From a virus: a stretch of 54,533 bases of DNA. The notes under the pieces were generated by a model that searched no databases, had not been told where the DNA came from, and saw only the letters and a list, made by a program, of their open reading frames with translations. Position 1 is the stretch's first letter, and each line of letters opens with the position of its first letter. Location of the stretch: positions 1 to 54,533 of the IMG/VR virus record IMGVR_UViG_3300044648_000041; one strand, written 5' to 3'. Both the position numbers and the translations under genes were made by a program. Of the stretch, positions 32,267-35,710 are shown one piece after another.

Positions 32267-34276
32267 CTAGTCTTCCGTCACCGAAACGAACCCGTTTTCC
32301 ACTGTCAAGACGCCCTTATCCACCATCCTATCCAGGCAATTTCGAACGTTTACCTTTCTTTGCGCGGTACGAGTTGTCGATTCCGGGGACCGTTCAACAG
32401 CTTCATTTACGAGTGTGTCTACCATAGGCCATTCCCCGTCACGTTCGAAAAGGAACTCCACTGTATCTAAAATGATGCGTTCGTTGTCCCCCATGCGGCG
32501 TCTTTTATCCTGGTTAGCACCTCCGCTTACCACGCTAACTTCCGCCTCTTCCACCACGCAACTAGTCACGGCGTCCCCGTCTTCGTCCACTCCAACGGGT
32601 ACCGAAACCAGTTTAAACCCGAACGCCGGACTGTCGTCGCCGTCCTTCAATTTTGTAATAGTGGCCACGCGACTGTCGCCGTCCCGCACTACTTCCAGTT
32701 CGCAATCCGCCGCCGCGCGTAATCCGGACCACCCACGGGCACCCTTGGCGGCGTCCTTGCCGCTGTGGTGGACCAGTACCACCATGGCGCCGGTAGCCTT
32801 GCTCAGTGCCCTACAATGGCTCAGTGCCTTACCCATGTCTTCACCGCTGTTCTCGTTCGCACCAGGCGTCACCTGTGCCCACGTGTCCACTACTACGATG
32901 GAACAGGTACCGAAAGCCTGTACCGCGGCTATCACATCCCGTACGTCTTTCTTGTCCAGGAAGTTGGGCGCCGCCGGGATAATGCCCAGGCTGTCTTCCG
33001 GTATGTCATGGCGGGTAGCGTAGGCTTTAATCCGGTTCCGGAAGCCGCCCGAGCCTTCAGCCACTATATAGACTACCCGGGCTTGCTTTACCCGTCTGGT
33101 ACGCCACGGTTCACCCCGGGCGACCGCACACACCATGTCGAAGGTGAAGAACGACTTACCGCTACCGCTGGCACCGTAGAACACCGCCAAGTCCGCAACA
33201 GGAAGCACGCCCTTGATGAACCAACCGGGGGACGCAACAGAATGGAACTCTGAGGGCTTGAGTACCGCAAACCGTTGCGGGTTGGGCACGTCGACCACTT
33301 CGGGAACATTGCTAATGTCATCAAAGTCGTCCGCGGTCGGTACGTCCACCCACCCGGCGTCCGTAGCCATTTTGTACAAGGTTCCACCCGTAACAGGGGC
33401 GGCGCTAGACTGACCGAAGGTGTCCCACTTTTCCCCTAGTTCTTCAAAGCCGGGATAATCCAGTCCTTGCGAACTCCACGAGTCCCACAATAATAGACCG
33501 TCGCTACTGCCTTCCGTCTCGTGGTGGATAGCTTGCCCTACCTTCACCCAGTCGGTGTATGGCATGTTCGGGTAAAGCGCATTCACCGCCGAGGTTAAAC
33601 GAGTATCTAACCCTTGTGGCGCCGCACGTTCCACCGGCGCGGGCTTCTCAACAACCGGCACCGGTGCGGATACCGGCCACTGTACAGGGTAATCCCGGGG
33701 CATGCGCTGGTAGTCGGCCATGGGTTCAAGCGGTACGGACTCCCCGCTATAAGGAAGAATGAACATGTTCCCGAACCCGTCCACGGGTACGCTGTCCTGT
33801 TTGGGGAAAATCTCCACCTGGTTATTGGCTACCCCGCCCGCGCCGTCGGTCGTACCGAAGGTGGATAGGACCGCTTTAAAGAACATGCGGACGCTGTAGG
33901 CGTCTTGCGGGGTGTCCCATATAAAGTACAAGTGTATCCCCTTGCCACCGGACGAAGAAAAGGGGATAGCTTCTACCCCGTACACCCCCGCGTCTTGTAG
34001 GATATCGTCGGCAAGGCGCACCATATCCGCCCACGAGGTTTCGCCCTTGTGGCTATCCAGGTCCAGAACAGCAACCCGGGTAGTGGATTCCCCCGCCTTG
34101 ATGGGGCACACGCCTTTCGGAATGGTCCCTTGCATATGGGTAGTTAGCTCCCACTCCCCGAGCGGTTCCCGGACCATGTACGGACCCTTCTTACTCTTCT
34201 TCCAGTGAACGTCAGTACGCACACGGCTTACAAGTGGACGCAAAAGGTCCACTGATAATACTTTTTCTTCGATCAT
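32267..34276 (-). CDS. Primase-helicase (AEP-like primase + PriCT + RecA-like ATPase), 669 aa
   Basis: Initiates DNA replication. The N-terminal archaeo-eukaryotic-primase-like part has VAVLDLDSHKG near residue 72 and SSGGKGIHLYF near 110, the TOTE/REP-like form. A PriCT-type linker (YPNMPYTDWVKVGQAIHHET) spans about 225-290. The C-terminal RepA-like hexameric helicase domain has Walker A GASGSGKS near 369, Walker B SIVVVDTW near 462 and VHHSGKDAAKGARGWSGL near 505. A short winged-helix-like tail ends the protein. The start overlaps the methyltransferase stop (ATGA). The gene is followed by the iteron cluster, consistent with an origin next to its initiator. Confidence 0.9.
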   Translation of the reverse strand: MIEEKVLSVDLLRPLVSRVRTDVHWKKSKKGPYMVREPLGEWELTTHMQGTIPKGVCPIKAGESTTRVAVLDLDSHKGETSWADMVRLADDILQDAGVYGVEAIPFSSSGGKGIHLYFIWDTPQDAYSVRMFFKAVLSTFGTTDGAGGVANNQVEIFPKQDSVPVDGFGNMFILPYSGESVPLEPMADYQRMPRDYPVQWPVSAPVPVVEKPAPVERAAPQGLDTRLTSAVNALYPNMPYTDWVKVGQAIHHETEGSSDGLLLWDSWSSQGLDYPGFEELGEKWDTFGQSSAAPVTGGTLYKMATDAGWVDVPTADDFDDISNVPEVVDVPNPQRFAVLKPSEFHSVASPGWFIKGVLPVADLAVFYGASGSGKSFFTFDMVCAVARGEPWRTRRVKQARVVYIVAEGSGGFRNRIKAYATRHDIPEDSLGIIPAAPNFLDKKDVRDVIAAVQAFGTCSIVVVDTWAQVTPGANENSGEDMGKALSHCRALSKATGAMVVLVHHSGKDAAKGARGWSGLRAAADCELEVVRDGDSRVATITKLKDGDDSPAFGFKLVSVPVGVDEDGDAVTSCVVEEAEVSVVSGGANQDKRRRMGDNERIILDTVEFLFERDGEWPMVDTLVNEAVERSPESTTRTAQRKVNVRNCLDRMVDKGVLTVENGFVSVTED

Positions 34277-35232
34277 GGGCGCGTCCCTAAGTAGGCTTTG
34301 ATGAATTCTTCAGCTTGCGGAGCAACGATAGCGTTTCCGTAGGCGCGCAGTCGTCCCACTCTTGCGGTAGCCCCATGAGCCAGCGGGAATGAGCCGGGTT
34401 CAACTGGCCGGTATTTTTCGTCCCGGCAGTAGAGCCAGTCGGCGGCGGACCAGAATCCACGAGTTGCGCTTCGCCCCATAGCTTCAGGTATTTCTTCCCG
34501 TTGGTTATCCCGTATCGCCCCATCGTTTCCGTCGCTTTCGGTGTCTGCCAACCCACCAGCGACGCGCACCCCGGTAGCCGGTCCGCCCCTTGCCCCGGTC
34601 CGCCCTTCGGTCCGTCTTGACTGCAAGGTGTCGGCCATCCCGCCAGTTGCGCTGTCACGTCCAGCGTGTCCGTGCTTATTTTTCCGTTCCTGATCCGACC
34701 CCCGATGTAACCCCCCTTGTGATCCCTCGTCGACGGAGTCGGCCACCCAATACATGCGGTGTCGTTGATGGGGCGCCCCGAAGCCCGCAGCAGGGGCAAC
34801 GACCGCCCCGACGGTGTAACCTGTTCCTTCCAAGTCAGCTTGAACAAGGTCGAGCCAAGTGTATCCGTCCTTGCTCGCAACCTGTTCGCCAAAGACTGCG
34901 ATAGGGCGGCGCTGTTCGATGAGGTAATGGAATGCTGGCCATAGGTGCCGCTCGTCAGCGAATCCGTCACCTTTGCCAGCCACGCTGAATGGTTGACATG
35001 GGCAGGATCCGGTCCACACTTCGCCGGTGCCCCATCCGGCGCGGTTGAGGGCGTAATCCCATACACCAATTCCGGCGAAGAAGTGGCAGCGGTCGTATCC
35101 GATAAGGTCTGCGGGTGTAACATCTTCAATGCTCCTTGTATCAACATCGCCCGGGGTTATGTGCCCGGCGGCAATCAGGTTGCGCAACCATTGCGCGGCG
35201 TATTCGTCAATCTCGTTGTAGTAGGCTCGCAC
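34273..35232 (-). CDS. DNA cytosine-5 methyltransferase, 319 aa
   Basis: GTG at 35232 follows GGGGGAG and overlaps the upstream stop as TAGTG; the longer frame to 35394 is rejected. C5-methyltransferase motifs: FFAGIGVWD near residue 52 (motif I), PCQPFSVAGKG near 79 (catalytic Cys, motif IV), GEQVASKDG near 117 (in place of the usual ENV), QRHRMYWVA near 158 (motif VIII), RAYGNAIVAPQAEEF near 300 (motif X). The region between VIII and X, expected to set target choice, is low-complexity and lies where a second frame is open. It may protect phage DNA from restriction. It is co-transcribed with the HTH regulator and primase. Confidence 0.9.
   Translation of the reverse strand: MRAYYNEIDEYAAQWLRNLIAAGHITPGDVDTRSIEDVTPADLIGYDRCHFFAGIGVWDYALNRAGWGTGEVWTGSCPCQPFSVAGKGDGFADERHLWPAFHYLIEQRRPIAVFGEQVASKDGYTWLDLVQADLEGTGYTVGAVVAPAAGFGAPHQRHRMYWVADSVDEGSQGGLHRGSDQERKNKHGHAGRDSATGGMADTLQSRRTEGRTGARGGPATGVRVAGGLADTESDGNDGAIRDNQREEIPEAMGRSATRGFWSAADWLYCRDEKYRPVEPGSFPLAHGATARVGRLRAYGNAIVAPQAEEFIKAYLGTRP
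34287..35123 (-). CDS. Second-frame protein inside the methyltransferase gene, 278 aa
   Basis: A long open frame, +1 relative to the methyltransferase, covering most of it. ATG at 35123 (MLHPQTLSD) has an ideal AAGGAG 8 nt upstream (35132-35137). The product shows repeats (GWPTPSTRDHKGG, GWPTPCSQDGPKGG, GWQTPKATET) and ends NPAHSRWLMGLPQEWDDCAP, a pattern I recall from many annotated phage proteins of unknown function next to Dcm genes. It may be a truly dual-coded gene. Alternatively, the frame is an echo of repeated GLADT codons in the methyltransferase. Confidence 0.55.
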   Translation of the reverse strand: MLHPQTLSDTTAATSSPELVYGITPSTAPDGAPAKCGPDPAHVNHSAWLAKVTDSLTSGTYGQHSITSSNSAALSQSLANRLRARTDTLGSTLFKLTWKEQVTPSGRSLPLLRASGRPINDTACIGWPTPSTRDHKGGYIGGRIRNGKISTDTLDVTAQLAGWPTPCSQDGPKGGPGQGADRLPGCASLVGWQTPKATETMGRYGITNGKKYLKLWGEAQLVDSGPPPTGSTAGTKNTGQLNPAHSRWLMGLPQEWDDCAPTETLSLLRKLKNSSKPT

Positions 35233-35414
35233 TACTCCCCCTTCTTTTGTTCGTGCTGGCGGTAGAGTTTCCCGTCGTTGTACCCGTTGTGGTAGGCATT
35301 CGCCCGTTCCGCCCGCATACACGTAACACACTGTTTCACATAGGCGATAGGCGAAACCGGCGTCACTTGTTCGAATTCCAATGGCTCTTGGCACGTGTTA
35401 CAGTAGAGTTTCAT
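35232..35414 (-). CDS. Zinc-ribbon-like small protein, 60 aa
   Basis: MKLYCNTCQEPLEFEQV and QCVTCMRAERANAYHNGYND give two CxxC pairs spaced as in a zinc ribbon, followed by a charged tail. It overlaps the HTH regulator stop (ATGA) and the methyltransferase start (TAGTG). It is probably a small nucleic-acid- or protein-binding accessory of the early minus operon; the exact function is unknown. Confidence 0.75.
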   Translation of the reverse strand: MKLYCNTCQEPLEFEQVTPVSPIAYVKQCVTCMRAERANAYHNGYNDGKLYRQHEQKKGE

Positions 35415-35656
35415 TTTGAGTTCTCCGGTACCGCTGCCAAGTCGCGCACCTTCAGAACCGGCAAACGCCCACCCGCAGCCACCCATAGTTCCACGGTCGC
35501 GTCTGAGATAGCTAAAGCCAAACGAACCTTTGGATTCTCCCGAACCCCATACCCAAGCAACCGCAAATACCCAACAGAAGTACCCGCGCGCCGGGCAAGT
35601 TCTTCCTTCTCTTCCTTCGTGGCTAGCTTCAACCATTCACCTAGTTTAGTTACCAT
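35411..35656 (-). CDS. Cro-like HTH regulator, 81 aa
   Basis: ATG at 35656 follows GGAGGTAACGGT. The longer frame to 35710 is excluded because the -10 lies at 35683-35688. The core EEKEELARRAGTSVGYLRLL is a helix-turn-helix of the Cro/CI or YdaS type. It lies at the divergent early control region next to two TATC-N3-TGATA operators (35705 and 35748), so it is the best candidate for their binder. It has no C-terminal oligomerisation or cleavage domain, so it is Cro-sized. No separate CI-type repressor was found. Confidence 0.8.
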   Translation of the reverse strand: MVTKLGEWLKLATKEEKEELARRAGTSVGYLRLLGYGVRENPKVRLALAISDATVELWVAAGGRLPVLKVRDLAAVPENSK

Positions 35657-35682
35657 ACCGTTACCTCCCCCAAAAAAGTGAA

Positions 35683-35710
35683 AGCATACGGTAACAAAAG
35701 AAAATATCAA
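35683..35710 (-). promoter_or_regulatory. Early leftward promoter for HTH operon
   Basis: Minus strand: TTGATA (35705-35710), 16-nt spacer, TATGCT (35683-35688), about 27 nt before the regulator ATG. The -35 lies inside the operator at 35705-35716, so binding there would block it. Confidence 0.6.

Follow-up and report, generated by a model that had tools for sequence, protein, structure and literature searches.

The window analysed here, a stretch of 54,533 nucleotides that constitutes a virus record, contains terminase, tail and endolysin genes and, on its minus strand, a gene for a predicted C5-cytosine methyltransferase (C5-MTase). The longest form of this open reading frame (ORF), referred to as alpha, covers positions 34273–35394 and codes for 373 amino acids from a GTG start codon; the shorter form listed in Table 1 begins at an internal GTG. 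A second ORF, beta, is nested in alpha in the +1 frame. Its 278 codons and the AAGGAG sequence placed 8 nt before its ATG were found where the original prediction had located them, and the GWPTP repeats announced for its product are present as GWPTP or GWQTP, together with NPAHSRWLMGLP. The stop codon of alpha overlaps the ATG of the downstream gene (34273–34276), which codes for a primase-helicase-like protein (32267–34276; AAA_25, PriCT_2), and because of this overlap, translational coupling of the two genes is suggested. Upstream of alpha, there are two overlapping minus-strand ORFs at 35232–35636 (134 aa) and 35411–35710 (99 aa), the latter with weak similarity to repressors of phages (phrog_35 and phrog_10248).

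Table 1. Features of the two nested frames and their positions in the window.
Feature	Position	Strand	Details and basis
Alpha, C5-cytosine MTase frame	34273–35232	minus	319 aa from GTG at 35232; catalytic core and motif X, without motif IX
Beta, +1 frame nested in alpha	34287–35123	minus	278 aa plus stop, ATG at 35123, stop at 34287; TRD-like modules and putative motif IX
AAGGAG Shine-Dalgarno sequence, 8 nt 5' of the beta ATG	35132–35137	minus	Sequence (ctcctt on the plus strand)
Overlap part in which alpha is the catalytic core up to motif VIII	34744–35100 (approximate)	minus	dN/dS alpha 0.26, beta 0.67
Conserved folded segment of beta (SLANRLRARTDTLGSTLFKLTWKEQVTPSGRSLPLLRAS...), helix and two strands	34773–34922	minus	AF2 pLDDT ~80–89, residues 71–110
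GWPTP modules of beta	34410–34748	minus	34641–34748, 34554–34640, 34410–34553; boundaries approximate; module analysis
Variable region of alpha, sharing its DNA with the beta modules	34453–34743	minus	dN/dS alpha 1.20, beta 0.34; alpha pLDDT <50
Putative motif IX in the beta frame, GQLNPAHSRWLMGLPQEW	34356–34409	minus	Motif IX profile; reference M.HhaI RKLHPRECARVMGYPDSY
Motif X in the alpha frame, RLRAYGNAIVAPQ	34312–34350	minus	G299, N300 and A301 invariant in 52 relatives

In C5-MTases, motif VIII is followed by the target-recognition domain (TRD), motif IX and motif X. The assignment of alpha to this family was borne out by matches to PF00145 (7.6e-18, covering only profile positions 65–169 of 324) and phrog_363 (1.4e-83). 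The catalytic residues P78 and C79 are invariant across 52 relatives, the PCQ motif and the flanking core are present up to motif VIII, and the GNA of motif X is invariant in the alpha frame of the same relatives. Modelling by AF2 yielded an alpha core with pLDDT values of about 90 and above, which matched M.HhaI and M.HaeIII in Foldseek searches. The variable region was modelled with pLDDT values below 50, and the model contains no ordered small domain.

Stop codons were counted in both frames and compared with numbers expected from codon permutation. In the window, the overlap contains no beta-frame stop versus about 6 to 7 expected after synonymous-codon permutation in the MTase frame. The tests on the relatives were made independent of the beta ORF. 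Across 193 non-redundant loci, only 19 stops were found in the +1 frame versus 703.5 expected after synonymous-codon permutation of alpha, with 183 of these loci containing none, and the +2 control frame was undepleted (2416 seen, 2157 expected). Because most loci had been collected by their similarity to beta, the test was repeated on 91 non-redundant loci selected by alpha, including a few fetched with PF00145 and likewise blind to beta. All 91 matched the beta profile and together contained 11 beta-frame stops versus 333.7 expected; such alpha-selected sets counter the collection bias only for alphas near the query. In the reciprocal test, the beta-selected variable regions contained a single alpha-frame stop versus 644 expected from beta-synonymous shuffles, and the third frame contained 1301 versus 1289 expected. 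The length of the +1 ORF is far beyond chance, and the free build-up of stops among homologues that would contradict dual coding did not occur. Beta overlaps alpha in the +1 frame in all of 374 loci (viral and bacterial contigs and phage records), a few of which carry frameshifts, and no standalone beta was found among them. Single frameshifts or stops swap or break both frames in L120 (257–1485), L064, L118, L160, L315 and L351, and these changes are assembly errors or decayed copies.

Selection was estimated from 98 independent pairs of loci with 70–95% nucleotide identity, using an OLGenie-like count without multiple-hit correction, in which each substitution was scored as synonymous or not for either frame. 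The region landmarks were set from motif patterns, which was possible in 219 of 275 complete loci. Upstream of the beta start, dN/dS was 0.19 for alpha and 1.05 for the beta frame, the latter being the value expected of a non-coding frame and serving as an internal negative control. The values for alpha and beta were 0.26 and 0.67 in the catalytic overlap, 1.20 and 0.34 in the variable region, and 0.32 and 0.39 in the last part of the gene, and 53% of the substitutions in the variable region fell on the beta wobble position. Selection therefore switches frame along the gene, which is divided between the two proteins: alpha is kept in the catalytic core and motif X, and the variable region together with the codons leading up to motif X is kept for beta. 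Because alpha is held open throughout its variable region despite evolving neutrally there, the natural reading is that it is translated through this region to reach motif X and that its residues on the way are immaterial, which agrees with the disorder in the AF2 model. The synonymous-site comparison suggested for both frames thus supported the proposed long dual-coding gene, with both frames open and under selection. The expectation that the second protein constrains the low-complexity region of the MTase held in a stronger form than proposed, as only the beta amino acids are conserved there (dN/dS 1.20 for alpha versus 0.34 for beta); in the MTase frame, this stretch probably does not serve target recognition at all.

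We then turned to the content of beta. An 18-column profile of motif IX was built from eight classical MTases found here and M.HhaI, and the 70 codons before motif X were scanned in all three frames. For 182 of 187 window-type relatives, it was the +1 frame that gave the best match, with mean scores of 9.2 for the +1 frame, −0.7 for alpha and −1.1 for shuffled sequences, which places the alpha frame of the relatives at shuffle level over these codons. The best match in the window was GQLNPAHSRWLMGLPQEW, as compared to RKLHPRECARVMGYPDSY of M.HhaI. Scanning the beta proteins over their entire length gave a weak signal (38 of 60), and comparing the beta C-terminus with classical MTases by HH profile-profile alignment, for which only three references were used, produced no match. 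The LTWK region of beta is near-invariant. No match to beta was found in Pfam or NCBIfam; phrog_1008 and phrog_31772, both labelled 'DNA methyltransferase', were matched by beta and by all 55 aligned relatives. The AF2 model of beta alone was poor (mean pLDDT 58.7), and the fold search was uninformative, with no match in the PDB. Judged by the profile scores, beta carries the motif IX that is absent from alpha. Alpha, with its neutral and disordered variable region, does not combine a TRD and motif IX on a single polypeptide in the manner of a PF00145 enzyme.

Upstream of motif IX, the beta proteins contain 0–6 modules, mostly 2–4, each of which opens with GWPTP or a similar sequence. We counted 522 modules with a median length of 40 aa. 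Related modules occupied different ordinal positions in 369 of 750 pairs, and the same modules recur across loci. They are 79% identical when read as beta, the corresponding values for alpha and the third frame being 44% and 45%. As 58% of the substitutions are at the third codon position of beta, the modules look like cassettes exchanged for their beta coding. They are tandem, interchangeable and of TRD size, as are those of multispecific phage C5-MTases, and because tandem TRDs serving several targets are known from phage MTases (PMC8936443), we infer that the GWPTP modules are target-recognition domains. The original prediction had likened the ending of the +1 product to that of many phage proteins of unknown function. 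Its GWPTP and NPAHSRWLMGLP features are real, but the putative motif IX and the modules speak against an unrelated protein, and beta most likely complements alpha as the second half of one enzyme, equipped with motif IX and recognition modules.

Several observations bear on the expression of beta. A strong Shine-Dalgarno sequence is present at the site corresponding to that of the window in 52 of 163 relatives versus 3.6 expected, and the conserved arginine of alpha at this site is encoded by AGG in 32% versus a background of 9%. Other relatives seem to start beta at nearby ATGs. In one locus (L060, 2474–3949), the beta frame continues beyond the alpha stop into an in-frame MT-A70 adenine-methyltransferase domain (E 8e-25). 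Together, the Shine-Dalgarno enrichment and this fusion point to translation of beta. In a locus from a gammaproteobacterial genome (L495:108–2138, genome G271), alpha carries an insert matching Hint and LAGLIDADG at the catalytic PC/Q motif, and a 180-codon ORF with the beta core and motif IX starts downstream of the insert, at 1546; an intein-like insert with an intact beta behind it fits a separately initiated beta. The N-terminal part of the beta frame may be dispensable because gene 58 of phage N15 retains the frame without an open N-terminal part.

Among phages, relatives of the locus were detected in those of Enterobacteria, Pseudomonas, Xanthomonas, Vibrio, Rhodobacter, Paenibacillus and Lactobacillus. 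Bacterial genomes with relatives came from alpha-, beta- and gammaproteobacteria as well as Desulfovibrio; for one gammaproteobacterial class, 274 genomes were sampled and 9 gave a match. In the phages of Paenibacillus and Lactobacillus, alpha is of the canonical 'LSLFSGIGG' type at 47–49% GC, and beta is still present. We assembled a set of 80 loci (L501–L580) found by an alpha of this type alone. Among the 73 with an in-frame motif X, 68 have an xMG[FYLWIM]P motif in the +1 frame, and none shows a match to the motif IX pattern in-frame alone; the +1 frame also scored best for motif IX in all 59 distinct loci. Stops numbered 61 versus 255 expected, a looser figure because the counted stretch runs past the end of beta. 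The canonical LSLFSGIGG phage methylases may thus share the two-frame layout. Both ORFs are annotated in some phages, such as K1ind2 (ORF28/29) and Tadhana (gp54/gp55), and we found no interpretation of these double calls. The annotation of beta is inconsistent (L289, L293), in that it is called 'Mte8-like protein' or a second 'DNA methyltransferase' in some phages and is missing in close relatives. When 100 flanking proteins were scanned for defence genes and Pfam families, phage genes and other MTases (Dam, D12) were found; among the 25 families listed from these proteins, there was no restriction enzyme apart from one generic ResIII helicase match, and rarer ones are possible.

Taken together, we assign a probability of roughly 0.85 to the reading that the two nested frames of the locus together specify a single heterodimeric C5-cytosine MTase. 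Alpha would represent the AdoMet-binding, catalytic large domain with the motifs up to VIII and motif X, its variable region acting as an unconserved linker. Beta would be initiated independently from its own Shine-Dalgarno sequence and ATG inside alpha and would supply the small domain with the target-recognition modules and motif IX. Both chains would be translated in the phage of the window and assemble into an active enzyme modifying the phage DNA, which would probably protect it from host restriction, and the tandem shuffled modules would provide one or several sequence specificities.

Beta may alternatively be an unrelated phage protein, e.g., a regulator or an anti-restriction protein, which overprints the MTase gene and acts outside methylation. 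It has no Pfam or structural match, and selection on beta as a protein leaves its function unspecified, which would suit such a role. However, the putative motif IX and the repeats of beta lie at just the place where alpha is missing both motif IX and an ordered domain for recognition, so that the canonical order VIII-TRD-IX-X is retained on the DNA. Moreover, beta never occurs without an overlapping alpha in the 374 loci, and a second polypeptide bearing motif IX has a precedent in M.EcoHK31I (PMC3404938). We consider an unrelated function unlikely.

The order of the parts on the DNA, being that of a single-chain enzyme, would also allow for one chain produced by programmed frameshifting, which would run from the alpha N-terminus into beta for TRD and motif IX and back again for motif X. 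This would take two shifts, whereas beta has its own Shine-Dalgarno sequence and start, alpha stays open through the very region to be skipped (1 stop versus 644 expected), and the stop of beta precedes the end of alpha in most loci. Considering the two shifts, the separate start and the open alpha frame, we rejected this mechanism as very improbable. The least probable reading is an untranslated +1 ORF, maintained by DNA- or RNA-level conservation of the repeats or open merely through GC-rich codon usage. Long open +1 frames are common in GC-rich genes, and the median GC content of the loci is 0.60, but the composition-keeping codon-permutation null predicts about 704 stops versus the 19 seen, and relatives at 47–49% GC keep the +1 frame as well. 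The accumulation of variable-region substitutions at the beta wobble position (53%) is not expected from DNA-level constraint, and the Shine-Dalgarno enrichment and the MT-A70 fusion again point to translation. DNA-level conservation of the repeats was rejected.

For the nested heterodimer, M.EcoHK31I offers the closest known case. Its small polypeptide is reportedly encoded within the gene of the large one in another frame, and both are said to be needed in vitro (Lee, Kam and Shaw, 1995). The larger polypeptide of this MTase (recognizing YGGCCR) carries motifs I–VIII, X and a predicted TRD, and the smaller one only motif IX (PMC3404938). Compared with this published description, the locus likewise appears to have motifs I–VIII and X in the larger and motif IX in the smaller chain. 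In the window, as in every locus having both ORFs, the smaller one is nested in the larger in +1, resembling the nesting reported for M.EcoHK31I. In contrast to the TRD predicted for the larger subunit of M.EcoHK31I, the conserved variable modules are here in the frame of the smaller chain, and the window locus belongs to a phage; no restriction enzyme was seen in the vicinity of its relatives. By its features rather than its sequence, the locus would work like M.EcoHK31I. In the literature, which was covered in part, we found nothing on dual coding in the MTase family beyond mentions of this enzyme. M.AquI is another C5-MTase split across two polypeptides (PMC3404938). Its small subunit contains motifs IX and X, the split lying inside the variable region, whereas motif X is in the alpha frame here and the two ORFs are nested over ~840 nt. 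Multispecific Bacillus phage C5-MTases are single chains encoded in one frame. The window locus is phage-borne with tandem modules of ~40 aa like these enzymes (e.g., M.H2I; PMC8936443), but has the modules in the beta frame and the catalytic core in the alpha frame, and hence not on a single polypeptide. The frame-2 proteins are already in databases as phrog_1008 and phrog_31772, with nesting, motif IX and a subunit role absent from the visible family labels. New with respect to M.EcoHK31I are the breadth of the arrangement, the putative recognition modules in the second frame and the LSLFSGIGG methylases apparently sharing the layout. On balance, we regard it as fairly probable that a large share of phage and prophage C5-MTases, including those of the LSLFSGIGG type, are nested two-frame heterodimers whose specificity derives from shuffled cassettes in a mostly unannotated second frame.

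The two-frame arrangement is shared by hundreds of phages and prophages. If the proposed heterodimer is correct, dsDNA phages and bacteria possess a long, widely conserved gene that is dual-coding on the same strand, with an overlap of ~500–1600 nt. It would account for the apparent lack of motif IX and the low-complexity recognition region in such methylases, and the annotated MTase ORF expressed alone would yield an inactive protein. The shufflable cassettes of the second frame would make the prediction and engineering of specificity directly testable. For research on overprinting, the locus would serve as a model of how the domains of a single enzyme can share out two frames between them, with selection switching along the gene.
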